Shown piece after piece: positions 3,450-23,468 of a stretch of DNA of 23,734 nt (the stretch's first letter is position 1; each line of letters opens with the position of its first letter). Under the pieces are notes generated by a model. That model saw only the letters and a program-made list of their open reading frames with translations. It was not told where the DNA came from and made no database searches. Made by a program: the position numbers and the translations under genes. This stretch comes from a virus. Where the stretch lies: the IMG/VR virus record IMGVR_UViG_3300044940_000699, positions 1 through 23,734 of that record, one strand, 5' to 3'.

Positions 3450-6400
3450 TTAAATGCTGGCGCTGGCGGCGTATCCCCGGCCAACCACTGCGGAAAGCTG
3501 ATAGACTTTTACGCTCACGCTGCTTTGCAGGCTGCCGAAATCGGCAGTTTGCTCGGCGGCGCTATAGCTGGCGGTTGGGCTGATAGTGGAAATCGTTCGC
3601 ACTACTGTGCTGCCATCAAGGATTTCCACCTCGTAGCGTTCGCTTTCCTCACCCAGCGGAATGTCCACCCCGTCGCGCCATTCCGCATCGACGCGAGAAC
3701 GGCGCACCCAGCTGATCGTTAGATTGCCGGAGCCGTCGCGCAGGCCTGTCACATGCACCGGCGCGAAGGGTTTCAGGCTTCGCCCGCTATAGGTAAAAGC
3801 CACCTCGTCGGTATTACCCAGCGAGTTGCCAACGCTTACCGCCTTGTAGAACAGTTCGCGCCCGATCAGGTTGTTAGCGATTGCGGTCGTATATAAGGCC
3901 GGAGAAAGCAGGATAAACCTGTCCCCGGCGGTATGACTACCCACCGCCCATTCCGTACCCTGCCGCCCCCGCAAAAGCCGGGAAAGGCGATAGGTACGCT
4001 CGCCGATCAACTCCGCATTCTGGAATTGCACCAGCTCGTCACCGATTAAAGCAGCATTCGCTCCGTTCGGCACGGCCAGTTCACTGACGCTGGCGAGGCT
4101 TCCGGCGGTTAACACCACCTCCACGAGATTCACCTGATCCCATGTTTCCGTGATACCGGCGGCAAGGTCGGTGATGATCGCGCCGAACGTGGCCGCACCT
4201 TCCAGTCCGGCCAGCAGGTTGAAGGTATTGCCGCCATCTTCCCCGCCATCGTCGGAACGATAGATTGCTGCACCGTTCCAATCCGCGCCATCGGGAGCCA
4301 CGCCAAGGCGCAGTAATCCCTGACTTTGCACCGTATCCACCGGCAGCGGCGGCGCGTCCACAAACTGAAGCAGCGTTTCCGGCACCAGCACCGGCGGCGT
4401 GATGTTGCGCGATGTCTCACCCGGTGGGGTGTAGAAATCGTAGGAACTCACATCCTCCGCCACGGCGTTGATTTTCATCAGGCCGTTGGCTTCCATGTCG
4501 GTTTTGATGACGCGCATTTCATGTGCTACCCCGGAAACGGTCACGGTGATGACGTCGGTCGGTTCAAGCCGTACATATTTAGGCGGCACGGTCAGGCTAA
4601 AACTCAGGCGTTCCTTCCATGTGCCATACAGGGTAATATCCGCTACCTGCTTGGCCTGCGTTGCGCCCATAACGATGGGAAGGTTCATCGTTACCTGATC
4701 CACCGCACGCACCACCTGCCGCTGGGAAGTCTGCGTCACCGGGTCATAATTAAATGGCCGGTCGAGATAGGTCACATTGACGCGCTGGGGCAATTCAAGC
4801 TCCTGCGCGTAATGGATCTCCAGCACATCCTGCACACCGCTCTTGGCGCTGGGGATGAGGTCAGCTTCCGGGATGGATTTTACCGACGCATTGCCACGCG
4901 GCACGCATTTAAGAATGCCATCGCTTTCCACCACATCGAAAAAGAAACCACTGGCCAGCTGCTCCAGCGCGTTCCGCACCGTGATCGGCTGTTGCAGGAT
5001 GAACCCTTCCAGCGAGGCGGTCAGGCGGGTGACGTCATAATCCGAAGGCGTAAGGCCTGCGGCTTGTAACAACTCTGCCACCACCGCGCCCAGCGTGGAA
5101 GCGCCCAGCTTGCCGTTCACCCAATGCCCCGTTGCCCACAGGATAGAATCCTGCCACACGCCTTCCAGATCAGGCCAGAAAGAAAATGGCCTGGCGTCCC
5201 ACGTCCAGATAAAGCGCCGTGCCACAAGGCCGCTATTGCCGGAGGCGGTTTCCCGCGCTTCCAGATAATCCAGCGTGCTATCCAGTGCCACACGCTGCGC
5301 CTGAAAATCCACTCGGCCTTTGGAGCCGCGAGGGAAGAAACTCTCGCTGGAAGTCGGATCATAGAACACGTTGGGCTGGTTGGTGCAGCCATCCACCGAA
5401 GGAAAGCCGAACTCGGTAAACCACACGGGTTTCATTTTGGCAGTCCAAGCGGTCGCAACCGCATTCGGGTTTACATGGGTGTTCTTCCACCAGTGTTCGA
5501 GGTTTTTCCATGCGTAGGTCGGATCACCGCCATAGCTGGTTTGCCCTGTGCGAGCCACGGAATCGGCATAGTAATAATCCCAGCCTTCGCCGCTCTCCCA
5601 ATATTCGGTGATAAGCTCCGGCGTGATCTGGATTTGCGGCAAGTCCGGTGTCAGCGGAAAATAGCTATCAATCCCCACAAAGTCGATATTGGCCGAAGCC
5701 CAGAGCGGATCGAGGTTAAACCAGCCACCGGTGCTGTGATATTCGCTCCAGTCGGCGGCATAGGTAATCAGCGTTCCGGGCATGGCGGCTTTCACGCTGC
5801 CCGCTAAACTCACCAGCTGCGCCACCGCCGGATAGCTTCCGGGCGAATCGGTAAAGCCGGTCATGCCGATCAGCTCCGAACCGATGACGAACGCATCCAC
5901 ATCGCCACTGAGCAAATTGGCGTAGTGCATGATGAAGGCGTTATAGCCGTTGGTTTTGGTGAACCAGCTGGCCGCATCGGTGGCGTTTGCAGGTTCGATG
6001 CGCCCGCGCCACGGCTTCGGCACCGGCGTAATCGTATCCACGAACGGCATGGGGTAAAGCATGACATTCAGGCCACGGCTTTTCAGTTCCGCACAGAGTT
6101 GCACCACCGTATGATCGGAAGGCGTGCCGCCATAGGTGGGCGTATCCTCATCGAAAAACAATACCGTTTGAGCCGAAGCGCGGCTGATACCCGCCACGCT
6201 CCAATCCTGCGGCAGCACCTGCGTGGTGCCTTGGAATTCCACCTTGGGGATGATTTCGCAATCCCCGGCATCGGTGGAAGTGGCGAACCACGTCACCACC
6301 ACCGCCACCCATTCCAGATTCGGCAGCACCTTCAGCAACTGGTCAATCGCCACCTGCACATCGGCTTTGCCTTCGTAATTGTGCATGTTGATGCTTTTCT

Positions 6401-7202
6401 TGTCGCTGGAAGGTGTGAAGGCTCCGCCGAAATAAGCATAGTAACCGTCCTGCTTGGTGGTGACCTGCGTGCCATAGACAAATTCCCCCGCGCCGGGGAT
6501 TATCACGATGTCTTTGACCTTATCTTCCACGCTGTGCTGGAATTTGACCGTATGGCGCACCTCGAACGTAAAATTGGGGATGCGGTTGCCGTAAGCGGCC
6601 AGCGGAAAATCCTCCACCACCACATAGGCCATGCCCCGATGTGCCGGGATCGTCCCAGCTGGCAGGTATTTGGCCATGATGTCATCGACACCTTGCTCTT
6701 CATCGCCGAAATGGACGTTATACTTGCCCTGCGCGGCGGAGAGTTCGGTTTCCGTCAGCACCTTGCTATCCGCCCAAACGCGGATCACTTCGTCAATCTC
6801 ACCCTCGCAAATGGCAATCGCCAGCGTGACATAATACTCATAGGAAATCGTGGTCTGGCTGGTCGTGGTTTTGCCGCCACCACCGCCTTTACCGCCGCCG
6901 CTGGAGGTTTGTGTGGTGGTTTTCTCGCTGCGGACTTCTTTAATATCGGTTGCCCAGATGACGTTTCCGGCCAGCCGCATCGTGCCATACACCCTTGGAA
7001 TGATGTTCCCGTAAGTAGAAATCTGCGCCCGGAGGTCAGCGAGGCGCGGTCCTTCCTGCGTCGGCAGCTGCACGCGCTGGCTTTTCGGGAAGAACGCACC
7101 CGCAGCCATACCGCCCAGATTCGCGCCAAGGATTGCCCCGGAGGGACCACCCAGCACAAAACCGGCCACGCCGCCAACAACAGGAAGGACAATATCAGCC
7201 AT
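3450..7202 (-). CDS. GTA TIM-barrel tail protein (host specificity / tail hub)
   Basis: At 1250 residues this is the largest gene and matches the GTA gp15-type baseplate protein, normally about 1300 residues. Residues 1-40 are hydrophobic and glycine-rich (PVVGGVAGFVLGG). A Gly/Lys/Thr-rich low-complexity loop lies near 100-118. The GTA TIM-barrel-like region covers about 240-650, with HYANLLSGDVDAFVIGSELIG and VWFTEFGFPSVDG as landmarks. A phage-tail-3 type hub region follows (about 720-960; YAQELELPQRVNVTYLDRPF). The C-terminal 100 residues look like a fibronectin-type beta domain (LRDGSGNLTISW). It would form the tip hub that contacts the cell. The start lies four bases after the NlpC/P60 stop, with no strong ribosome binding site, so coupled translation is likely. 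Confidence 0.92.
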   Translation of the reverse strand: MADIVLPVVGGVAGFVLGGPSGAILGANLGGMAAGAFFPKSQRVQLPTQEGPRLADLRAQISTYGNIIPRVYGTMRLAGNVIWATDIKEVRSEKTTTQTSSGGGKGGGGGKTTTSQTTISYEYYVTLAIAICEGEIDEVIRVWADSKVLTETELSAAQGKYNVHFGDEEQGVDDIMAKYLPAGTIPAHRGMAYVVVEDFPLAAYGNRIPNFTFEVRHTVKFQHSVEDKVKDIVIIPGAGEFVYGTQVTTKQDGYYAYFGGAFTPSSDKKSINMHNYEGKADVQVAIDQLLKVLPNLEWVAVVVTWFATSTDAGDCEIIPKVEFQGTTQVLPQDWSVAGISRASAQTVLFFDEDTPTYGGTPSDHTVVQLCAELKSRGLNVMLYPMPFVDTITPVPKPWRGRIEPANATDAASWFTKTNGYNAFIMHYANLLSGDVDAFVIGSELIGMTGFTDSPGSYPAVAQLVSLAGSVKAAMPGTLITYAADWSEYHSTGGWFNLDPLWASANIDFVGIDSYFPLTPDLPQIQITPELITEYWESGEGWDYYYADSVARTGQTSYGGDPTYAWKNLEHWWKNTHVNPNAVATAWTAKMKPVWFTEFGFPSVDGCTNQPNVFYDPTSSESFFPRGSKGRVDFQAQRVALDSTLDYLEARETASGNSGLVARRFIWTWDARPFSFWPDLEGVWQDSILWATGHWVNGKLGASTLGAVVAELLQAAGLTPSDYDVTRLTASLEGFILQQPITVRNALEQLASGFFFDVVESDGILKCVPRGNASVKSIPEADLIPSAKSGVQDVLEIHYAQELELPQRVNVTYLDRPFNYDPVTQTSQRQVVRAVDQVTMNLPIVMGATQAKQVADITLYGTWKERLSFSLTVPPKYVRLEPTDVITVTVSGVAHEMRVIKTDMEANGLMKINAVAEDVSSYDFYTPPGETSRNITPPVLVPETLLQFVDAPPLPVDTVQSQGLLRLGVAPDGADWNGAAIYRSDDGGEDGGNTFNLLAGLEGAATFGAIITDLAAGITETWDQVNLVEVVLTAGSLASVSELAVPNGANAALIGDELVQFQNAELIGERTYRLSRLLRGRQGTEWAVGSHTAGDRFILLSPALYTTAIANNLIGRELFYKAVSVGNSLGNTDEVAFTYSGRSLKPFAPVHVTGLRDGSGNLTISWVRRSRVDAEWRDGVDIPLGEESERYEVEILDGSTVVRTISTISPTASYSAAEQTADFGSLQSSVSVKVYQLSAVVGRGYAASASI

Positions 7203-7206
7203 AGGA

Positions 7207-7692
7207 TTATTTCAGCGATTGGAGTTGTTTCGTTTTGAATCGGTAAACGTGGGTGAGCATTCGCAGCCACGCATCGGAAAGCGGTTGTTCCACCACTTTT
7301 CCCGCACTGGAATTGCAATGAATTAGTCCCGCGCCGCCGGTGGGATATTCCGTCAGCAAGCCCACATGCTGCGGATCGCGGAATGTGCGGAATAACAGCA
7401 CATCGCCTTGCGTCATTTTTTCTTCCGGCACTTCGCGTAAGTGCCGCTGAATAGCGCCCACCAGCCGCCCGCGCTCCGGGTACATGGAATAATTGAACTC
7501 ATCATGCCGGGAGAGCGGATTGCCTTCACCGTCCTGCAATCCCAGCTCGTCAATCACGCCGATAATCAGGCCGATGCAATCCACCCCACCAGCGCCAGCC
7601 TTGGATTTCTTCAAGCGCCCTTGGTGGTGATACTTCGTGCCGAGCCATGTGCGGGCTTGCGCTACGATCTGTTGTTTCGTGACTTTACTCAT
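7207..7692 (-). CDS. NlpC/P60-family tail peptidase
   Basis: This 161-residue protein belongs to the phage NlpC/P60 group encoded between DUF2163 and the GTA TIM-barrel gene. The catalytic cysteine is C39 in GGVDCIGL, the histidine is probably H109 in PQHVGLL, and a third polar residue may be H125 in LIHCN. A QGDVLLF motif at 95-101 is also typical. NlpC/P60 enzymes cut peptide links in peptidoglycan; at the tail tip this would help DNA pass the cell wall. The start overlaps the end of the DUF2163 gene by eight bases and the stop lies four bases before the next gene, so the three are translated as a block. Confidence 0.9.
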   Translation of the reverse strand: MSKVTKQQIVAQARTWLGTKYHHQGRLKKSKAGAGGVDCIGLIIGVIDELGLQDGEGNPLSRHDEFNYSMYPERGRLVGAIQRHLREVPEEKMTQGDVLLFRTFRDPQHVGLLTEYPTGGAGLIHCNSSAGKVVEQPLSDAWLRMLTHVYRFKTKQLQSLK

Positions 7693-8548
7693 TGCGGTTT
7701 CCCTTACTCATGGTTCCCGCCGTGGTGAGCAGCGCGTCCACGCCGGGGACATACGGCTCGCCACGGAAATTAAGGATATTGCTGAATTTGCCCTGACAGG
7801 TTTCATGGGTTTTGTCGCACCCGGCGATGATCTTGAATTCATCGCCCACTTGGAGCGATTTACCCATTGGTAACGCCAGCACCACCTGCGCGGAGGCGAA
7901 TTCTTTTACCTCCATGCGCCGCCCGTCATTATTGCCGCTCGTCCATTCCACTTCGCCGCCGGTGAACCAACCTGCCGCCTGCGTCAGTGCGGAAGCCTTA
8001 AACGTCTGGTTATTCACCACTTCGGTGATCGTTGTGGTAACGGTAAAGCTGGCCAGTGCCACTTTGCAGCGGCTATCGCCCAGCACGGCGCGGCAGGATG
8101 GCGAATACACCTCGCCGATGGCCTGGCTTAAATGCTGCGTCAAGCCGCGCACTTCGGCATGGAACATCTGCGCGTTCAGCGTCACTTCGCCCAGCCGCCC
8201 GCGCTTCACCACCAGCTTTCCTTGGCTCAAATCCTCATAATTCACCATGAAGATTTCGATTTCGGCATAGTCATAAAGGCCAGCCAGTAAGTCGGATTCC
8301 GTGATTTTGGAAGGAAACGTCTGTCCTTCCAGATCAAGGTTATCCACGCTCATGTTGGATTTGCTTTCCACCGTGGTGGGCGTGAATCCGGCGATGGAGT
8401 CATATTCCAGCGAGTCAATCACCAGCGCCCGGTCGTGATCGGTAAAGCCAAGCTCGGTCGTGTCCTGCCGTGTGAGCCGCCAGCAGGTGGCAAGTGTAGT
8501 CAGGCCGCTGCCGAAATGCGCTTCCAGTTGTGGGGAAATATTTCTCAT
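7685..8548 (-). CDS. DUF2163 tail-tip protein (GTA gp13-like)
   Basis: This 287-residue protein matches the DUF2163 / TIGR02218 family. It has an N-terminal LATCWRLTR..T.LGFTDHD motif, a cysteine pair CRAVLGDSRC in the middle, and the closing CDKTHETC..KFSN..NFRGEPYVPG motif. The paired cysteines in these motifs suggest an iron- or iron-sulfur-binding distal tail hub, as reported for GTA tail proteins; that part is family knowledge. Normally the DUF2460 gene sits directly upstream. Here a plus-strand antiporter gene separates them by about 1.26 kb, yet the ribosome binding site AAGGA five bases before this ATG is intact. Transcription from the upstream tail genes must cross the antiporter in antisense, unless a promoter lies nearby. 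Confidence 0.9.
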   Translation of the reverse strand: MRNISPQLEAHFGSGLTTLATCWRLTRQDTTELGFTDHDRALVIDSLEYDSIAGFTPTTVESKSNMSVDNLDLEGQTFPSKITESDLLAGLYDYAEIEIFMVNYEDLSQGKLVVKRGRLGEVTLNAQMFHAEVRGLTQHLSQAIGEVYSPSCRAVLGDSRCKVALASFTVTTTITEVVNNQTFKASALTQAAGWFTGGEVEWTSGNNDGRRMEVKEFASAQVVLALPMGKSLQVGDEFKIIAGCDKTHETCQGKFSNILNFRGEPYVPGVDALLTTAGTMSKGNRNE

Positions 8549-10392: not shown

Positions 10393-12296
10393 AAGTTCCT
10401 CCTTGCCCGTTCAATCGAACGCGCCATATCCGCCGCAATCTGGCCTTGGCTTTGCCGGAAGCTGCGAACGTCCGGGGTTTGAATGTTCATATTTACCATG
10501 ATCGGAGCCGGAGCCATGCCGTTGGCGGGCATAATGTGCATCGGCGTGTTACCCGCAAAAGCGAGTTCGGGACCGCGTTCACCAACAATGCCGAATTTAC
10601 CCGGCTGAAGTCTGCCGCCATCGGCGAAGAAGCCACCGAAGAAATTGCCAATGCTGGAGAGCATCCCGCCGAATCCACCACCGCCACCGCTGCTACCACC
10701 ACCGAACATGCCGCCGATGGAACTAAACAGCCCGTCAATGATGCCGCCCTTGCCGGAGATGCCTAAATCCTTCAGGGCATATTGCAGCAGGGTGCGGTTC
10801 AGATCGGACAGGAAGCCCTTGAAGAAATCGCCGAAGCCATCAAAGCGACCACCAATCGCATCGAGTGAATCGGCGATGGTGCCTTCCATTGATTCGCCGA
10901 TACGGGAAAACTCACCTTCGATAGTTTCGCCGGTTTTCTTGCTGGCTTTGCCCAGCCGTTCCCCGGCCTGTTCCACCGCCCGCCCGAACGTGTCCTGATT
11001 GATATAACCTTTCTCCAGCAGCATGTTCAGCTGCGCCATCTCTTCGTTGTAGCGTTCCAGCGGCGTGCGCGTGGCCTCGAAGATGCGCTTTGCTTCCTGT
11101 TGCAGCTTATTCAGCCCTTTGACGGCTTTTGCGGTTTCCTCCACCTTTTCCGGGGTGGCGGTTTCGCCGAACAATCCATCCAGCGACTGATTCTTGGCAG
11201 CGCGGGCTTCCACAATTTTCGCGGCGGCGTCCTGAATCTCCGCATCAATGGCGCTGTTGAATTCCTGCGCTCTGGCCAACGCCTTATCAAACGCGGTTCC
11301 CATCGCATCGAGCAGGCCGGTTTCCAGCGCGGCGCGGGTGTTCTCGAAAGAAATGCCGCCCAGCGGGTTATTGACGAAATTCGCCAAATCCTGTCCCAGC
11401 GCCTCGAAGCGTGAGGAAATAGCATCGCCAAAGGCATTGAACGCATCGCCCACGCCTTCAAACACGGCAATGAATAGATTGCCGAATTTAATCACTTCCG
11501 CGATGAAAGCCTTAAAGCCCAGCCGGAAAGGTTCAATCGAATCGGTAATCAGCTGCGCCAGCCATTTGATTTTATCGGCAATGAAAATCAGAATATCCGT
11601 CAGGCCTGCATCGCCAATGGCTTTCACCAGTTTGGAGAACGCATCACCCATGTTGGAGAGTGCGACATTCAGCGTTCCGGCCTGTTCCTTCATGGCTCCG
11701 GCGAATTGCACATCGCCGATAGAGCGCAGATAGCCTTCAATCTCCTTGGCATTTTTGCCCACCGTAGTGCTGACGCCTTGGAAGGTGAAGGTCACCTGAT
11801 CGCCCTGTGCGCGGGACTTAATCCCGAATTCTTTCAGGCGCTCGAATTCACCCGTCGCAGCATCGGCCACGGCTTCGATCATCTGGTTGAGGGATTTTCC
11901 CATTGCCGTAGCGGTATTGCCGTAAGAGGTGAGTGCTTCCTCGGAAGGCGTCAGCCCCAGCGCCTTCAGCTTGATGAAGGCATCCACCACTTCTTCCAGC
12001 TGAAAGGGCGTAGTGGCGGCAAAGTTTTCGATGAAGCCGAAAGCAACGCTCGCCTTATCCGCCGAACCGGTGACAGTGCGAAGGCTCGCTTCCAGCTTCT
12101 CGAATTTGGTAATGGTGTCGGTGATCTGCTTGCCGACAAAGGCCGTAGCCATCAATCCGCCGACGCGCTGCAACCCGCCACCCAGCCTTTTGAACCGCCG
12201 ATCCATATTATCCACCCCAGACTGAATCTGGGTGAATGCGGCTTGGGTCTTGTTCACCGCACGGATAATGAATTGGGCACTGCTAAACACGGCCAT
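10389..12296 (-). CDS. Tail tape measure protein
   Basis: This 635-residue protein sits between the tail chaperone genes and DUF2460, the tape measure position. Residues 1-230 resemble the conserved N-terminal region of phage tape measure proteins (LEASLRTVTGSADKASVAFG, TTPFQLEEVVDAFIKLKALG). Hydrophobic amphipathic stretches follow at about 230-320 and charged helices at 350-480. A glycine-rich linker (about 540-560) leads to the typical C-terminal FADGGRL.PG.FGIVGERGPELAF motif. It sets tail length and helps eject DNA; at about 0.15 nm per residue the tail would be near 95 nm. The start has no strong ribosome binding site and lies inside the end of the frameshifted chaperone frame, which suggests coupling to it. 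Confidence 0.9.
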   Translation of the reverse strand: MAVFSSAQFIIRAVNKTQAAFTQIQSGVDNMDRRFKRLGGGLQRVGGLMATAFVGKQITDTITKFEKLEASLRTVTGSADKASVAFGFIENFAATTPFQLEEVVDAFIKLKALGLTPSEEALTSYGNTATAMGKSLNQMIEAVADAATGEFERLKEFGIKSRAQGDQVTFTFQGVSTTVGKNAKEIEGYLRSIGDVQFAGAMKEQAGTLNVALSNMGDAFSKLVKAIGDAGLTDILIFIADKIKWLAQLITDSIEPFRLGFKAFIAEVIKFGNLFIAVFEGVGDAFNAFGDAISSRFEALGQDLANFVNNPLGGISFENTRAALETGLLDAMGTAFDKALARAQEFNSAIDAEIQDAAAKIVEARAAKNQSLDGLFGETATPEKVEETAKAVKGLNKLQQEAKRIFEATRTPLERYNEEMAQLNMLLEKGYINQDTFGRAVEQAGERLGKASKKTGETIEGEFSRIGESMEGTIADSLDAIGGRFDGFGDFFKGFLSDLNRTLLQYALKDLGISGKGGIIDGLFSSIGGMFGGGSSGGGGGFGGMLSSIGNFFGGFFADGGRLQPGKFGIVGERGPELAFAGNTPMHIMPANGMAPAPIMVNMNIQTPDVRSFRQSQGQIAADMARSIERARRNL

Positions 12297-12788
12297 TTTT
12301 CTTGCTCACTGCATCATGTTGAAGTTCAAAAAACGCGACCCACTCCGTGAATTCCACGGTGGTCATCCGCTCAATGTCCGAAAGCCGCCTGTTCAGGCGA
12401 TAGGCCAGTGCTAACTGGTTGCGTCGGAGTGCGTCGCGTCGGAGTTTCCCTTGACCTGCTCCACGCTCTGGAAGAAGTGGCGCTCGATCTCGTCATTGAT
12501 GCGTAGGATTACGCGGCAATCCCCGAAATTGAGCAGATCATCTTTATCTTCCATTTTGAACAGGCGGTTGCCGTCCTTATCGCGGGCTTTGACGATCAGG
12601 GAATAAACGGCGTTTTCAATGCCGGAGGCCTTCTTGCCCGCCACCCGCTGAATCAGGCTGGCTTCCGCCATCGTCATCGGCAGGATATGGATTTGCAGGG
12701 GATTCTCCGGCTCGCCCCATTCCGGCACGGCAATCACCAGCCGGTCTTGTCCTTGATAATGCTGCTTTACGCGCTCAATCGTTTTCAT
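12283..12788 (-). CDS. Tail assembly chaperone, -1 frameshift fusion (lambda gpGT-like)
   Basis: A -1 slip at G GGA AAC (12450-12444) joins residues 1-115 of the short form to a 53-residue extension, giving 168 residues. The extension begins LRRDALRRNQLALAY and contains RRLSDIERMTTVEFTEWVAF, followed by FELQHD. This is the kind of short helical T-domain found in such fusions. It ends at TAG 12285-12283, fourteen bases inside the tape measure gene. It explains the otherwise empty 12297-12410. In lambda the equivalent site G GGA AAG gives a gpG to gpGT ratio needed for tail assembly; the T part recruits tail tube protein. The extension has no start codon of its own with a ribosome binding site that I could see. 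Confidence 0.75.
12411..12788 (-). CDS. Tail assembly chaperone, short form (lambda gpG-like)
   Basis: This 125-residue protein lies between tail tube and tape measure, the tail assembly chaperone position. It begins MKTIERV and has a PMTMAEASLIQRVAG helix and a KARDKDGNRLFKMEDKDDLL segment typical of such chaperones. They bind the tape measure protein and help the tube polymerise, and they are not in the mature virion. AAGGGGGAA before the ATG gives a strong start. Codons 113-115 form the slippery sequence described separately, ten codons before the TAG stop. Ribosomes that do not slip make this product. Confidence 0.8.
   Translation of the reverse strand: MKTIERVKQHYQGQDRLVIAVPEWGEPENPLQIHILPMTMAEASLIQRVAGKKASGIENAVYSLIVKARDKDGNRLFKMEDKDDLLNFGDCRVILRINDEIERHFFQSVEQVKGNSDATHSDATS
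12444..12450 (-). promoter_or_regulatory. Programmed -1 ribosomal frameshift site G GGA AAC
   Basis: On the minus strand codons AAG GGA AAC contain the heptamer GGGAAAC in the X XXY YYZ phase; GGA is codon 114 of the chaperone. Shifting back one base opens a 53-codon frame. Just downstream a 9-base GC-rich direct repeat (12436-12444 and 12421-12429) occurs; whether it forms a stimulatory structure is not clear. Confidence 0.75.
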
Positions 12789-12798
12789 GGCTTCCCCC

Positions 12799-13194
12799 TT
12801 ATGCTGCTACGGTTTGTTCAGTCAGCGCCCCGTTGCCGGTGAAGCTGAAGGTGACTTCCACCAGCCCATCGAAAGATGCGCTGTAGGAAATGGAGGTCAC
12901 AATGGCGTCACCGCTCCAGTAGGTCGCGCCGGTGTCATCACCTTCCGGGTAAAGGTTGAGGGTGACGGTAGCGCCTGCGGTCAATTCGCCTTGGCCGGTG
13001 GTATCGGTTTCATCCCAAAACCCATCCAGACTGCCTGACCAGCTTTTGATGGTTGCCTGATTTTTGCGCCACTCGGTGCCGATGATGGACGCATCCACCG
13101 TGTCGGACGTGATTTCCAGTGACCATGATTTTACTTCTGCGACTTGGGACGATCCGACAAAGACCTTCCCCTCGCTGCCAGCGTGGGTAGCCAT
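12799..13194 (-). CDS. Major tail tube protein
   Basis: This 131-residue protein is rich in Ser, Thr, Gly and beta-forming residues, as tail tube subunits are. The N-terminus GKVFVGSSQVAEVKSWSLEIT, the central FWDETDTTGQGELTAGA and the closing VEVTFSFTGNGALT fit the phage tail tube family, with TVTLNLYPEG between them. It would polymerise in rings around the tape measure protein. Position also agrees: after the tail terminator-like gene and before the chaperones. AGGAGA lies upstream of the ATG at 13194. Only ten bases separate it from the chaperone gene. Confidence 0.82.
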   Translation of the reverse strand: MATHAGSEGKVFVGSSQVAEVKSWSLEITSDTVDASIIGTEWRKNQATIKSWSGSLDGFWDETDTTGQGELTAGATVTLNLYPEGDDTGATYWSGDAIVTSISYSASFDGLVEVTFSFTGNGALTEQTVAA

Positions 13195-18019: not shown

Positions 18020-19849
18020 TTAGTTAAAATTCCAGTCATCAAAGCCCATCCAGCCATCGCTTGCGGGCGTGGCGGGTTCGGGTTTTTGTTTCGTGATCCG
18101 TTCGCGTTCCATTTCCTGCACCAGCGCATCCAGATTCGGGTTCAGGATGTAGAGCGCCGCCAGCGCATAGACCCGGCAATCCAGCGCTTCGTTGCGTTGC
18201 CCTTTGGCCAGCACCCAGTGGCGCGTCGGGTGGCCGTTCACGAATTTGGTTTTTACCCGCTCGGATGTCAGTTGCCGGAAGTAATCCTCCGGGTATTCCG
18301 CCGGAAAGTGGCAGTAACCGGCTCCCGGCTGGTGAATCTTCAGCCGTGCGTAAATCATCTGCTTGGCCGTGTCGGTTCCCAGCGTAAACAGCTTCACTCG
18401 CAGCTTGTTGGTACGGCTGAAGCGGCTGACCAATGGCCTGCCGATTTGTGACGCGCCTTTAATCGCAAACACCCGGTCATGCTCGCGGGCTTTGCAATAT
18501 TCATAGACTTTCTGCGTGTAATGCCCGCCGGTGTCGATGCAGGCGCAGCCCAGCGAAAGGCTTACTCCGTCGCTCCGCTGGAAGGGCTGGCGCAACACGC
18601 GATCCAAATCCTCCCACAGCTTGGCCTGCGCCGGGTCACCATGCAGCACATGGTATTGCAGCGACCAGCTTTCTTGCCCAATGCCCCAGCCAACTATTTC
18701 CGCTTCCAGCCGGTCGTCCTGCACGTCCACCCCGGCAGTAATCACCACCACGCCAACGGGTGCGATGCGTCCCCAGTTCTCTTTGCGACTGAGCAGGCCG
18801 GTGTGATCCACGCCCTCGGTGGCTTCCTTCCATGTTTCGCCCAGCGAGGTATTCACCCACACTTTCAGCGTTTCCGGCAGGCGCTTGGCTTTGAAGAAAT
18901 TCTCCACCATCTCGCCCCAGCGCACCCACGGGCTGTAAAGCTCCGAGATATGAAACCCCGCGACGCCGTTAAATTCAGCCTGCGCCCGCCATTCACCCTT
19001 GGCCAGCATCCACGGCTTGTCACTGTCATGCAGCACCGCCGCGCAATGCTCACATTCGTAATGCGCCGCATCCGGCTTATTGCGGTCAAACTTCACCTGC
19101 GCCCAGCGCAAGGTCTGGAACACGCCGCATTCCGGGCAAGGCACGAAGAACAGTCGCTGATCGCTTTGCTGAAAACGGGCTTCTATTTTGCTTTCGCCCT
19201 CAATCGTCGGCGTGCTGGCCGATACCAGAAGCCGGTTCCAGAAGGTGGTGGTACGTTTTTGCGCCAGCGAGCCGGGATCACCCTCACTACCGGCGGAAGT
19301 GGGATAGCGGTCTTCCTCATCAAGCAACACAATCCGTATCGGGCGACTGGCCAGTGATGACGGGCTATTAGCGCCCGCCATCGTCAAATGCCCGCCATTG
19401 AATTTCTTATGCAGCAGCGTGTTGTCGCTGTTGCGGCTTTTCGGGTCTTTGAACAATTCCGTCAGCGCGTCCGAATCGCGGATCATCGGCGCAAGGCGGT
19501 CTTTGCTCCATGCCTCCGCCATCTCCAGCGTGGGCTGGATGAACAGAATCGGCGATGGGTCTTGGTGAACGAAGTAACCCAAGATGTTATTCAGAATCTC
19601 GGTTTTGCCGATTTGCGCGGAGGTCATAAACACCACCTCGCGCACGCCGGGTTCATTCACTGCATCCATCATGCCGCGCTGATAGGGTGCGCGGTCAGTC
19701 CGCCACCTTCCGGGCTCGGCGCTTGCTTCCGGGCTGAGTTTTCGGTTTTCGTCCGCCCACTGACTTACGGTCAGTTCCGGCGGTGGCATCCACACCTGCC
19801 GGACTTTCTGCATCAGCTTCTGGTAGTGCGTCATCATGGGCGAGTTCAC
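18020..19849 (-). CDS. terL: Terminase large subunit, GpA family
   Basis: This roughly 609-residue ATPase/nuclease cuts concatemers and drives DNA into the prohead. Walker A is TSAQIGKTE (76-84, Lys82) and Walker B is IVLLDEEDRYP (173-183). A zinc-binding-like CPEC...CEHC lies at 238-269. The nuclease half begins near GVDVQDDRLEAEIVGWG, with acidic residues, and continues with CIDTGGHYT. The family is GpA (lambda gpA, 641 residues), consistent with a cos-type packaging enzyme. The start is uncertain: a GTG at 19849 has GAAG six bases upstream, while ATGs at 19837 and 19834 lack a good site. All lie within the small subunit gene, an overlap of about 140-155 bases, long for this window. Confidence 0.92.
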   Translation of the reverse strand: MNSPMMTHYQKLMQKVRQVWMPPPELTVSQWADENRKLSPEASAEPGRWRTDRAPYQRGMMDAVNEPGVREVVFMTSAQIGKTEILNNILGYFVHQDPSPILFIQPTLEMAEAWSKDRLAPMIRDSDALTELFKDPKSRNSDNTLLHKKFNGGHLTMAGANSPSSLASRPIRIVLLDEEDRYPTSAGSEGDPGSLAQKRTTTFWNRLLVSASTPTIEGESKIEARFQQSDQRLFFVPCPECGVFQTLRWAQVKFDRNKPDAAHYECEHCAAVLHDSDKPWMLAKGEWRAQAEFNGVAGFHISELYSPWVRWGEMVENFFKAKRLPETLKVWVNTSLGETWKEATEGVDHTGLLSRKENWGRIAPVGVVVITAGVDVQDDRLEAEIVGWGIGQESWSLQYHVLHGDPAQAKLWEDLDRVLRQPFQRSDGVSLSLGCACIDTGGHYTQKVYEYCKAREHDRVFAIKGASQIGRPLVSRFSRTNKLRVKLFTLGTDTAKQMIYARLKIHQPGAGYCHFPAEYPEDYFRQLTSERVKTKFVNGHPTRHWVLAKGQRNEALDCRVYALAALYILNPNLDALVQEMERERITKQKPEPATPASDGWMGFDDWNFN

Positions 19850-20282
19850 TCAATGCTTCATAAATCGCCCGTTTCAGGAACCGCTCAATCTCGGTCGGTT
19901 CCTTCAGGGCGGCGATCTGGAAGGCGCTTTTGCTCGGTATGGCAAGCAGCCGCATCCGGCAGGCAGAAACTTGCTGCATCCAGTCATGTTCAATCGTTTC
20001 AATCGGAATCAGTTGGTTACGAAGTGCGGCCACTTCGAGTTCGGTTTTATCGGCCTGCGCCTTAATCAGCCGGGCGCGTTCGTGATGCGTGTCACGCGGC
20101 GCGTCGGCATTGCCATAGGCGCGATCCTGCAAATAGCGCACATAGTGCTGCACGCAGCGCACCAGATCGTATTTGCCTTTGTCGGCCTTGGGGATGATTC
20201 CATCCCGCGCCAGCTGCTGCACCCGGCGTTCGGTCAGGTTCAGGAACCGCGCAATGACTGCTACCTTGTGAAGAATTTGCAT
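19695..20282 (-). CDS. Terminase small subunit, Nu1-like
   Basis: This 195-residue protein starts with a winged helix-turn-helix: VAVIARFLNLTERRVQQLAR followed by DGIIPKADKGKYDL, like the MerR-type DNA-binding part of lambda Nu1. A helical middle (ERARLIKAQADKTELEVAAL) probably mediates assembly and binding to the large subunit. The C-terminal tail is basic (RKPKTQPGSKRRARKV). It would bind the cos packaging site, which has not been located here. AGGAA lies upstream of the ATG at 20282. The gene overlaps the large subunit by about 150 bases in another frame, and follows the methyltransferase gene by 12 bases. Confidence 0.85.
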   Translation of the reverse strand: MQILHKVAVIARFLNLTERRVQQLARDGIIPKADKGKYDLVRCVQHYVRYLQDRAYGNADAPRDTHHERARLIKAQADKTELEVAALRNQLIPIETIEHDWMQQVSACRMRLLAIPSKSAFQIAALKEPTEIERFLKRAIYEALSELAHDDALPEADAESPAGVDATAGTDRKSVGGRKPKTQPGSKRRARKVAD

Positions 20283-20294
20283 GAAGGGTTCCTA

Positions 20295-20972
20295 TCATGA
20301 CGTGATAATCCACCCCGCAAACTCTCCAAACCGAAACCATTCCGCTGCATTTTCTCCCAGTATGGCAGGATCAAGCGGGCGTTGAACGCCGCCGAGTGAT
20401 AATTCCTTGGCGATGATATGCTCAGGGCTGACACCCGCCGCCACTTTGCCCGCAAGCGTCAACCGCCACAGCACCGTGGCTTGATAGCCTGTTGCTGCTT
20501 CGCATTTATCGACAATCACAATCGCGCCGCCGGGTTTAAGGGAGGCGCGGAGCTTGGCAATAAACGCCGCCCGCGCACCCACCGGCATGAACATCATGAC
20601 GAGGTAACACACGGCCACATCGAACGGCTCATAATCAAACCGGCAGGCATCCATCTGCACCAGATGCTCCTTGCCCGGTCCCGAATACTGGCCGCACATT
20701 TCCGCGCTTGGCTCTATCGGCACCAGCCGCGCCTGCCGCTGCGTGAGCGCCGCTTCCAGCGCCTTGCCGATATTGCCGGTGGATGCGCCGATGTCATAGA
20801 CCAGCCCACCTTGCGGGATATAATGGCGGGCGATATGCGCCACCGCGCCGGTCACCAGATCATACCAAGGCAGTTGTTCGCGCACATGCTGGTTGAAACT
20901 CTGGGCAACACCGGCGTGCTCGAACGTCCATTCCTTCGGTATGTCCATTACGGTGTGGGAAGTGCTGTCCAT
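20295..20972 (-). CDS. SAM-dependent methyltransferase, CmoA-like
   Basis: This 225-residue class I methyltransferase has motif I VYDIGASTGNIG (58-69), an acidic residue after strand 2 (E87), D108 at strand 3, DVAVCYLVMMFMP at strand 4 and LKPGGAIVIVDK (145-156) at strand 5. The N-terminus (FEHAGVAQSFNQHVREQLPW followed by YDLV) recalls CmoA, which makes carboxy-SAM for tRNA uridine 34. Whether this protein uses SAM or carboxy-SAM, and on what substrate, cannot be read from the sequence. It lies between a HAD-like gene (25-base overlap) and the terminase small subunit, so it is part of the operon. A second ATG at codon 9 (20948) is possible, but the first has a GAGA-like site upstream. Confidence 0.75.
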   Translation of the reverse strand: MDSTSHTVMDIPKEWTFEHAGVAQSFNQHVREQLPWYDLVTGAVAHIARHYIPQGGLVYDIGASTGNIGKALEAALTQRQARLVPIEPSAEMCGQYSGPGKEHLVQMDACRFDYEPFDVAVCYLVMMFMPVGARAAFIAKLRASLKPGGAIVIVDKCEAATGYQATVLWRLTLAGKVAAGVSPEHIIAKELSLGGVQRPLDPAILGENAAEWFRFGEFAGWIITS

Positions 20973-21370
20973 TGTTCGTTCTCAAATACTTTGACGGATG
21001 GAATACCGAATTCTGCATACATGGCCTGCGTGCGCGGGTTGCTTTCAATCGCCAGATATTGCTGGCCGCTTTTCCCATGCTTCGGCAGCACCAGCTGCTC
21101 CAGCATGATGCGCTTGGCGATATGCGGCGGTTTGTAATAGCGGTTAAAATGCGCTTCCTGCGGTATCCACCCGGCCTTGAAGTAGAGGCTATCAAGCGTC
21201 GGCTGCTTGTGCTTCTCAGGCCGCGCCGTCATCAGGATGGTGTGATAGGGCGCAACCAGACTCACCAGCCAGTTGCGGTAGGTTTCCTGCTGGATTTGCA
21301 GGGCAAAGGGTTTGCGCTTCTCATGACTATTGGCCACCAGCGTATAATTCAGATCGAGCAGAATAATCAT
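20948..21370 (-). CDS. HAD-superfamily phosphatase-like protein
   Basis: This 140-residue protein fits a small HAD fold: motif I DLNYTLV (D6, N8, T10) at the N-terminus, motif II ILMTARPEK (T48), then a helical region with KPPHIAKRIMLEQL. A late strand LAIESNPRTQAMYAEFGIPS is in the motif IV position. HAD enzymes use the first Asp as nucleophile and normally the third residue is Asp as general acid/base. Here it is Asn, and motif IV has Glu109 and Asn111 in place of the usual acidic pair. It could thus be weak, altered or non-catalytic. The ATG overlaps the stop of the ParB/methyltransferase gene (ATGA) and GGGAG lies upstream. Substrate unknown; nucleotide or nucleic-acid end phosphates are possible given the neighbours. 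Confidence 0.65.
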   Translation of the reverse strand: MIILLDLNYTLVANSHEKRKPFALQIQQETYRNWLVSLVAPYHTILMTARPEKHKQPTLDSLYFKAGWIPQEAHFNRYYKPPHIAKRIMLEQLVLPKHGKSGQQYLAIESNPRTQAMYAEFGIPSVKVFENEQWTALPTP

Positions 21371-22881
21371 AACTTCACTCCCAGCCGCCGGGAGAAGGCC
21401 TGCTTCGCTTCAGCCACCAGCCCCATGCGGCTGCCATCAGGATAGGGAAGATCAAACTCAAATTCGAGTGCTGCTTTCAGTCTTTTGATATTGATTTCCC
21501 GTGGTTTACCGCAAATGGCCTGCACGTTGCTGTTGCTTTCATCCACCTGCACGGCGAGGAAGAATTGCTTGAACAATTCGTAAAACTCCCGCTGCGAGTG
21601 GTACTTCTGCACTTTCGGCGAAGTGGCAATATCGCCCAGCGTAATGCCCGGTTCATAATCCAGCTTGAACAGCACCGCGCCGGATTGTCGTTCATTCAGC
21701 GAGTGGTAACCGCTAAGCTGCTTGATGTTGATATGGTTGATGGCAGAGGCCACTGCGTAAAGCTGGGTCGTATCATCGGCCAGCGCCGCACAGATACAGG
21801 CGATATGCTCCCGGTCTGCCTGAAACGGCACGCTGTTCAGCACGCTGGAAATGAAAATCGACGAATAGTGCAGCTTCTGCGTACCAATCGCATGGAGAAA
21901 CTCCCGCGTCAGCGCGAGGCTGGCTTCCTTGTCGATTTCATCGCTTTCGCCCACCCGGTACGGCTCAAACGGCGTGACCGTAATGCCCATGCTGCGAAGG
22001 ATGCGGGTTTCATGCAAATGTCCCGCACCAAAATCCAGCACGCAGCGTCCATGCTGTTTGATCCAGCGTTCACGGTTGGCAGCCTCGTGAATGTCAAAGG
22101 CCTTGGCGGTAGAATCACCTGCCACCGCAAAGATAAACCCGCGCCCAAGGCTGTTTCTCACCTGACGCAGGCGCCGGAAGGAATTATGGCGCAGCAGATC
22201 CTCGTAACGCCTGTGGATGTCAAAATCCATCGACAGGTAATTGAGCATCGCTTCCGCCAGCTGGCCTTCCGCGTCAGTGACAAACACCACCGGCACTTGT
22301 TCCAATCCCAATTCGGCACAGTGCTGCAAGCGGCCAATGCCATTGACCACCCGGTAATCCCGCGTGGCCACCACCGGCATCATAATCCCGCGCCGCTTCA
22401 GCGTCTTGGCGATGTTCAGCGAATAACCCTTCCACCGGCCTTTGTTCGCCTTTAAGAAAGGCGCGATAGGATGCGGCTTGGCATTCAGGCATGGATAAAA
22501 CTCCGGGCTATCCACCGCCTTATCAGGCAGGCCTTCAGCCAGCTTACGCACATCCGACGCCTGCATCCGGGCAGTCATATCCGCCACCGTGTCGCTCTGG
22601 CCTAAATCATTGGTGGCGCGGTTAAACACCACGTTGACGCCTTTGCGCTCTGCCAAATCCATTGGGCGCGTGACTTCCACTGGCAACTGCGAGGCTCCCA
22701 TGCGGCAGGCGACATGGTGACGCTGGTGGCCGGAGATGATTTCCCCGTCCGGCGTCGCATAAAGCGGTAGCAGAAAGCCCAGCTTGCGGAGGCTGAGTTC
22801 AATCAAATCCAGCCGCTCCGGGTCTGCCACACGCGGGTTATAGGTCGAGGGCGCAATATCGTTGACGTTTACCAGTTTCAT
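21367..22881 (-). CDS. ParB-ParB-methyltransferase-like fusion protein
   Basis: This 504-residue protein seems to have three parts. Residues 1-72 are a ParB/Srx-type domain with PSTYNPR and the ParB box GHQRHHVACRMG (51-62). Residues about 133-205 look like a second, more divergent copy (IMMPVV...DYRVVNGIGRLQHCAELG). Residues about 275-410 resemble a SAM-dependent methyltransferase: CVLDFGAGHLHET (280-292), E306 after strand 2, and SSIFISSVLNSVPF (340-353). A helical C-terminal part follows (REFYELFKQFFLAVQVDESN). ParB-type domains bind and hydrolyse CTP or cut DNA; ParB/methyltransferase pairs occur in phages beside terminases. Role inferred: recognising and modifying or marking phage DNA. 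It overlaps both neighbours by ATGA. I do not know a characterised member. Confidence 0.72.
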   Translation of the reverse strand: MKLVNVNDIAPSTYNPRVADPERLDLIELSLRKLGFLLPLYATPDGEIISGHQRHHVACRMGASQLPVEVTRPMDLAERKGVNVVFNRATNDLGQSDTVADMTARMQASDVRKLAEGLPDKAVDSPEFYPCLNAKPHPIAPFLKANKGRWKGYSLNIAKTLKRRGIMMPVVATRDYRVVNGIGRLQHCAELGLEQVPVVFVTDAEGQLAEAMLNYLSMDFDIHRRYEDLLRHNSFRRLRQVRNSLGRGFIFAVAGDSTAKAFDIHEAANRERWIKQHGRCVLDFGAGHLHETRILRSMGITVTPFEPYRVGESDEIDKEASLALTREFLHAIGTQKLHYSSIFISSVLNSVPFQADREHIACICAALADDTTQLYAVASAINHINIKQLSGYHSLNERQSGAVLFKLDYEPGITLGDIATSPKVQKYHSQREFYELFKQFFLAVQVDESNSNVQAICGKPREINIKRLKAALEFEFDLPYPDGSRMGLVAEAKQAFSRRLGVKL

Positions 22882-23468
22882 AATCCAAGCCGCTTTTTCA
22901 GTTCTGCGATGATTTCTTTTTTCTCAAAGCCCACATCCTGCTTCATGGCCTCCAGCCATTCGAGATATTGCTCTCGCGGGATAGGGAATGTGTAACCACC
23001 AATCCGGGCGGAGGTGTCGGCTTCTTCGATGTCGTCCTCGCCATCCTCACCGAACCCATCGGCCAGCTCATCCAGCGATGCCTGAATCTCCTTCAGTTCC
23101 TCCGCGTTGAAACCCAGCATGTCGGTGTCATAGGAGGCGTCATCCAGTTCGGTGATCTCCAGCTGGAGCAGCGCCTTATCCCATTCCGATTCCTCACCCA
23201 CGCGGTTATCGGTGATGCGGTAGGCCTTGATCTGCTCCTGTGTTAATTCCGTGGCCACATGCACCGGCACTTTCTTTAAGCCCAGCCGCTTGGCCGCTTC
23301 AAAGCGCACATGCCCGACCACGATCACCATTTCCTTGTCGGTGACAATCGGCTGGCGGAAGCCAAACTCCTTGATGGAGGCAGCGACCTTTTCAATGGCG
23401 TGTGCGTTAATCCTTGGATTCCGCGCATAGGGAATCACCTGATCCAACGGAACCAGTTCAATCTTCAT
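22878..23468 (-). CDS. ParB/Srx-domain protein
   Basis: This 196-residue protein has a ParB N-terminal domain: KIELVPLDQVIPYARNPR (2-19), IKEFGFRQPIV and the ParB box VGHVRFEAAKRLG (51-63), followed by VPVH. A TQEQIKAYRITDNRV helix is also typical of phage ParB proteins. The C-terminal half is acidic (residues 137-151, many Asp/Glu) with a final helical region. It has no partition partner ParA here, so a role in plasmid-like partition is unlikely. Phage ParB/Srx proteins of this kind usually sit upstream of terminase, often with DNA methyltransferases. AAGGAGA lies eight bases before the ATG. It is the first gene of the leftward operon, as the 5' side (23469-23551) has no minus-strand gene. 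Confidence 0.85.
   Translation of the reverse strand: MKIELVPLDQVIPYARNPRINAHAIEKVAASIKEFGFRQPIVTDKEMVIVVGHVRFEAAKRLGLKKVPVHVATELTQEQIKAYRITDNRVGEESEWDKALLQLEITELDDASYDTDMLGFNAEELKEIQASLDELADGFGEDGEDDIEEADTSARIGGYTFPIPREQYLEWLEAMKQDVGFEKKEIIAELKKRLGL

Follow-up and report, generated by a model that had tools for sequence, protein, structure and literature searches.

A conserved block of phage genes located beside the DNA-packaging genes appears to encode a variant of the CmoA-CmoX DNA carboxymethylation system (PMC12783734), wherein the C5-cytosine-methyltransferase homologue CmoX is replaced by a predicted transferase of a different fold class. We consider this the most likely reading, with a probability of about 0.72, although carboxy-SAM synthesis, carboxymethyl transfer and the DNA target are inferred from gene association and sequence. 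The block was examined in a window of 23,734 nucleotides that spans positions 1 to 23,734 of the IMG/VR virus record IMGVR_UViG_3300044940_000699. Four minus-strand genes overlap by 4, 4 and 25 bases and are followed, after a gap of 12 bases, by the terminase genes, as listed below.

22878 to 23468, minus strand: ParB-domain protein of 196 amino acids (P0001), found with CmoX cassettes as well as with M504 cassettes.
21367 to 22881, minus strand: M504, a 504-amino-acid fusion of a ParB domain, a divergent ParB domain and a class I SAM-transferase domain (P0002), the proposed carboxy-SAM-dependent DNA transferase.
20948 to 21370, minus strand: HAD-like protein of 140 amino acids (P0003), seen with M504 but not with CmoX.
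20295 to 20972, minus strand: CmoA homologue of 225 amino acids (P0004), the proposed carboxy-SAM synthase.
19695 to 20282, minus strand: terminase small subunit (TerS; phrog_57, 2.2e-31).
18020 to 19849, minus strand: terminase large subunit (TerL; phrog_15, 3.6e-268).

The original prediction described the first four of these genes as a fused unit directly before the terminase genes, and this observation is confirmed in full at the level of gene positions. P0001 matches ParB_N (PF02195) with an E-value of 7.5e-09 and phrog_620 with 4e-51. M504 matches ParB_N at 2.4e-07 with two stretches, and both its second ParB copy (residues 156 to 211) and its transferase part (residues 275 to 377) are also seen, the latter as a match to Methyltransf_23 (E 6e-04) that falls below the Pfam cut-off. 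Over its full length, M504 matches PHROG 5475 (5.6e-105), which is the family of M504 itself and has no assigned function. P0003 matches phrog_32036 (6.6e-26). P0004 matches the CmoA profile TIGR00740 of NCBIfam at 1.6e-13 and E. coli CmoA in the PDB (4gek) at 4.8e-10. The block is far beyond chance, as it is conserved gene for gene in relatives down to about 45% identity and in many bacterial phyla.

To evaluate the fold of M504, we generated AlphaFold models. A model made from the single sequence was uninformative (pLDDT 32), whereas a model made with 46 homologues was confident (pLDDT 90, pTM 0.85). Foldseek comparisons with this model returned ParB/Noc structures and class I SAM-methyltransferases, mainly small-molecule enzymes such as CcbJ and glycine sarcosine methyltransferase, with whole-chain TM-scores that are low because these are matches to single domains. 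The first ParB domain retains the Box II arginine in the sequence S50-G51-H52-Q53-R54, which is invariant in all 46 homologues, whereas the second copy is divergent and reads NGIGR. The transferase part carries invariant D283, G287 and E306-P307, along with the segment N349-S350-x-P352-F353 after strand 4, which is invariant except at x. K423, K426, R231 and R237 are also invariant and are candidates for the carboxylate-binding residue. M504 contains no PP dipeptide, and so neither the SPPC motif nor the (D/N/S)PP(Y/F/W) motif of known DNA methyltransferases is present. A weak resemblance to TIGR04096, a DNA-phosphorothioation-associated putative methyltransferase, was also seen. Only 2 of 46 M504 members match this profile, at best with an E-value of 0.029, and the hhalign probability is only 3.6%, although the glycine-rich motif I and the FQK/VQK segments appear similar by eye. 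This kinship remains no more than a weak lead.

The link to carboxy-SAM chemistry came from a literature search, which identified the CmoA-CmoX-CmoY system of Synechococcus phage S-B43, described in December 2025 (PMC12783734). In that system, CmoA makes carboxy-SAM, CmoX (carrying SPPC and R350) makes 5-carboxymethylcytosine in DNA, and the amide ligase CmoY, which is frequent but not universal, adds glycine. The authors observed ParB genes nearby without a known role. Moraxella phage Mcat8 carries a CmoA that is 47% identical to P0004, and this gene is adjacent to a C5-MTase that is 44% identical to the verified S-B43 CmoX and that retains both SPPC and R350.

An alignment of all CmoAs was too divergent for a locus search, and a scan for the partners of CmoA was seeded with CmoAs of the P0004 clade (three linked to M504 and one linked to CmoX). 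Among the 80 viral loci returned, 40 have CmoX, 34 have M504, none has both, and 6 have neither, of which most are cut at a contig end. When all loci were pooled, in a set that was partly seeded with M504, 111 distinct CmoA sequences are found with M504, 36 with CmoX and none with both. In this pooled set the HAD-like gene accompanies M504 in 103 of 111 loci and CmoX in 0 of 36, whereas CmoY is found in 0 of 111 M504 loci and 17 of 36 CmoX loci, counts that are lower bounds because the CmoY profile was built from two sequences. A ParB gene lies beside CmoX or M504 in most loci. The few C5-MTase-like ORFs in M504 loci score only 24 to 52 bits, and the two distinct examples that were read through lack SPPC or R350.

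P0004 is nested among CmoAs that are paired with CmoX. On a tree of the inner CmoA clade, the partner changes 9 times, with at least 5 changes forced by supported branches and a range of 8 to 11 over bootstraps. The clearest example is a pair of loci, L164 (M504 with the HAD-like gene) and L175 (CmoX), whose CmoAs are 91% identical. A gene that keeps its own sequence while its neighbor switches between two transferases most likely delivers the same product to both, and for CmoX that product is carboxy-SAM.

The association between M504 and CmoA is also broad. Among distinct M504 loci with room for the gene, 145 of 146 include a CmoA, the exception being locus L299, which shows none despite 8 kb of room. 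Bacterial genome contigs with the set include those of alphaproteobacteria, Vibrio, Firmicutes (many), Bacteroidales, Desulfovibrionaceae, Verrucomicrobiota and Chloroflexi. The complete genomes of Gordonia phage Evaa, Aeromonas phage HJ05 and Pseudomonas phage PA_L9, which carry M504, contain no CmoX by a search in which a CmoX-bearing control record did match. The minimal set is ParB, M504 and CmoA, as found in HJ05, PA_L9 and the Vibrio locus L298, and the HAD-like gene is an extra component. Of 16 bacterial genomes holding the cassette, some of which are metagenome bins and may be incomplete, 15 lack CmoB over the cut-off and only the Vibrio has it. In these 15 genomes, the phage carboxy-SAM is probably not feeding a tRNA pathway of the E. 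coli type.

P0004 is far below the equivalog cut-off of TIGR00740 (50.9 against 193.3 bits), and it lacks R199, the residue with which E. coli CmoA binds the carboxylate (PMC3663124), having E at this position instead. However, E is also present in the verified S-B43 CmoA and in 37 of 38 CmoX-paired CmoAs, and for this reason we rejected the loss of R199 as disproof of carboxy-SAM synthesis. Across 199 sequences, E at this place goes with R or K eight residues later, whereas R at this place goes with V or S, and P0004 shares its E190/R198 arrangement with 35 of 38 CmoX-paired CmoAs. This pattern looks like an arginine that has moved, an inference made without a structure. The most divergent M504 phages, HJ05 and PA_L9, fit neither arrangement (N/W and T/W), and the claim is weaker for them. 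A DAHP synthase gene in HJ05 was considered as evidence for prephenate supply, but was given little weight because 209 phage records carry such a gene, many of them large T4-sized genomes.

The HAD-like protein is under strong constraint, as D6-x-N8-x-T10, T48-x-R50, K86 and E109-S110-N111 are nearly invariant over 143 sequences. Of the HAD motifs DxDx(T/V), T/S of motif II, K/R of motif III and the acidic motif IV, D6, T10, T48, K86 and E109 are conserved, but the usual second aspartate is Asn in 140 of 143 sequences. The HAD label rests on these motifs only, and no profile match is significant. The strict tie of this protein to M504 and its absence with CmoX suggest a role specific to the product of M504, although the gene is missing in some cassettes.

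In the model that best accounts for these findings, P0004 would convert SAM and prephenate to carboxy-SAM, as inferred from its close kinship and interchange with CmoAs that serve CmoX. M504, held on DNA by its two ParB-fold domains and perhaps switched by nucleotide bound in the intact first domain, would then move the carboxymethyl group to a base of phage DNA, as inferred from the natural replacement of CmoX by M504. C5 chemistry of the CmoX type is unlikely because M504 has no SPPC motif. P0001 would assist, as in CmoX cassettes, and the HAD-like protein may process or regulate the modification. The product would shield phage DNA from host restriction, as 5cxmC does against HhaI (PMC12783734). 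The positions of the genes, the folds as modeled, the co-occurrence and mutual exclusivity, the repeated partner switches and the absence of CmoX from complete genomes are direct results of our analysis, whereas carboxy-SAM synthesis by P0004, carboxymethyl transfer by M504, DNA as the target and protection against restriction are inferences, and any function of the ParB and HAD-like proteins is conjectural.

The interpretation offered in the original prediction is thus supported in part. Its proposal that the cassette modifies phage DNA is supported, and the condition it had set as grounds for rejection, a neighborhood in which the genes do not travel together, does not hold, because they travel together strongly. 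What it missed is that the fourth gene is a phage CmoA homologue, which ties the block to carboxy-SAM chemistry and to the CmoX system with the three-part protein in the place of CmoX. The direct role in packaging that it also raised has no support beyond position.

Among alternative explanations, the one that survives best, though we regard it as unlikely, is that M504 uses carboxy-SAM but acts on a tRNA, a protein or a small molecule, with its ParB domains serving another purpose. This view is consistent with the modest structural matches of the transferase domain to small-molecule N- and O-methyltransferases, with its lack of DNA-methyltransferase motifs, and with the classical role of CmoA in tRNA modification (PMC3663124). 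However, M504 replaces CmoX, a proven DNA enzyme, at the same place between ParB and CmoA, carries two ParB folds and lies by the terminase, and 15 of 16 genomes with the cassette lack CmoB. Somewhat less likely still is that M504 is an ordinary SAM-dependent DNA methyltransferase and P0004 a second methyltransferase, without involvement of carboxy-SAM. The absence of R199, the low score of P0004 against the CmoA cut-off and the match of M504 to a general methyltransferase profile favor this reading. We rejected P0004 as a plain methyltransferase because P0004-type CmoAs interchange between CmoX and M504 and because the verified S-B43 CmoA also lacks R199. In addition, a C5-MTase with Asn at the R350 position (locus L267) has no CmoA in its locus. 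The remaining possibility, that the ParB genes are partition or packaging factors and the enzymes unrelated passengers of the late operon, is very unlikely because, although the block is nearly always near terminase genes and phage ParB genes near terminase are common, the gene set is kept together in many phyla despite changes in order and strand, with the HAD-like gene first in Firmicutes and reversed in Evaa.

Several described systems are related to this cassette. The S-B43 system shares with it a phage CmoA homologue, a neighboring transferase with a ParB gene, and interchange of the transferase next to near-identical CmoAs, but CmoX and CmoY are absent here, and M504 and the HAD-like protein stand in their place. 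A survey of the ParB-CTPase fold (PMC12704722) lists ParB-Methyltransf_23 fusions, the architecture of M504, as enriched in phages and shows ATP binding by a bacterial ParB-SAM-methyltransferase fusion. This survey does not mention CmoA, and we found in it no cofactor, partner genes or reaction for these fusions. Relative to the E. coli CmoA/CmoB tRNA cmo5U34 pathway, P0004 is homologous to CmoA, but CmoB is absent, R199 is replaced, and M504 is not a CmoB homologue by any profile found. ParB-Methyltransf_23 fusions in phages and DNA carboxymethylation by CmoX are each already known, whereas a link between the two, with M504 in the place of CmoX, was not found in the papers searched, a set that excluded preprints and most subscription papers.

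We infer that M504 represents a second, unrelated class of carboxy-SAM-dependent DNA transferase. It is possible, although this extension is more tentative than the main reading, that M504 places the carboxymethyl group at a position other than cytosine C5, such as adenine N6 or cytosine N4, to yield a DNA base not yet described, and that the HAD-like protein takes part in its maturation. The authors of the CmoX study state that a preliminary search found no adenine-N6 or cytosine-N4 carboxymethyltransferase associated with CmoA in phages (PMC12783734). M504 is a widespread CmoA-linked candidate from another transferase class, present in phages of many bacterial phyla and in culturable phages (Evaa, HJ05 and Pseudomonas phage SM1). 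If this reading is correct, it would assign a function to PHROG 5475, give a meaning to a class of ParB-methyltransferase fusions, and probably reveal a new DNA base that serves as a chemical handle.

In the Aeromonas phage HJ05 locus (L020), a DAHP synthase gene (positions 6257-7420; PF00793, 1.2e-49) is located right after TerL. Although this gene could raise prephenate for CmoA, 209 phage records carry such a gene. Between the gene for the ParB-ParB-transferase fusion (M504) and the HAD gene, locus L016 carries a gamma-glutamyl cyclotransferase (12619-13041; GGACT/AIG2-like, 2.3e-13), which is also found in locus L018 and is a possible hint at amide-type hypermodification. In locus L017, a T4 RNA ligase 1-like gene (11648-12817; PF09511, 1.2e-25) is present between M504 and HAD. 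Furthermore, the cassettes of loci L106, L109, L125, L303, and L308 include two HAD genes, one before ParB and one after M504.

In locus L190, CmoA is preceded by a 197-aa ORF (7414-8007) with HPPC and ENPVG motifs, reminiscent of a short C5-MTase, whereas neither CmoX nor M504 is present. This ORF is possibly a third CmoA partner. Locus L267 encodes a CmoX-like C5-MTase that has SPPC but carries Asn in place of R350, and there is no CmoA in the locus. We view it as an ordinary methyltransferase relative that fits the R350 rule.

Close relatives of the window's cassette (up to 97% in M504) lie in alphaproteobacterial metagenome bins (loci L287-L292). The flank of L291 carries genes that look bacterial, so the window may be from a prophage of alphaproteobacteria. 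Within the CmoA homologue P0004 (window 20295-20972), positions 190 and 198 reflect a paired exchange of an arginine, wherein E190 occurs with R198 or R190 with V198 across 199 CmoAs. This exchange may mark two ways of binding the carboxy-SAM carboxylate.
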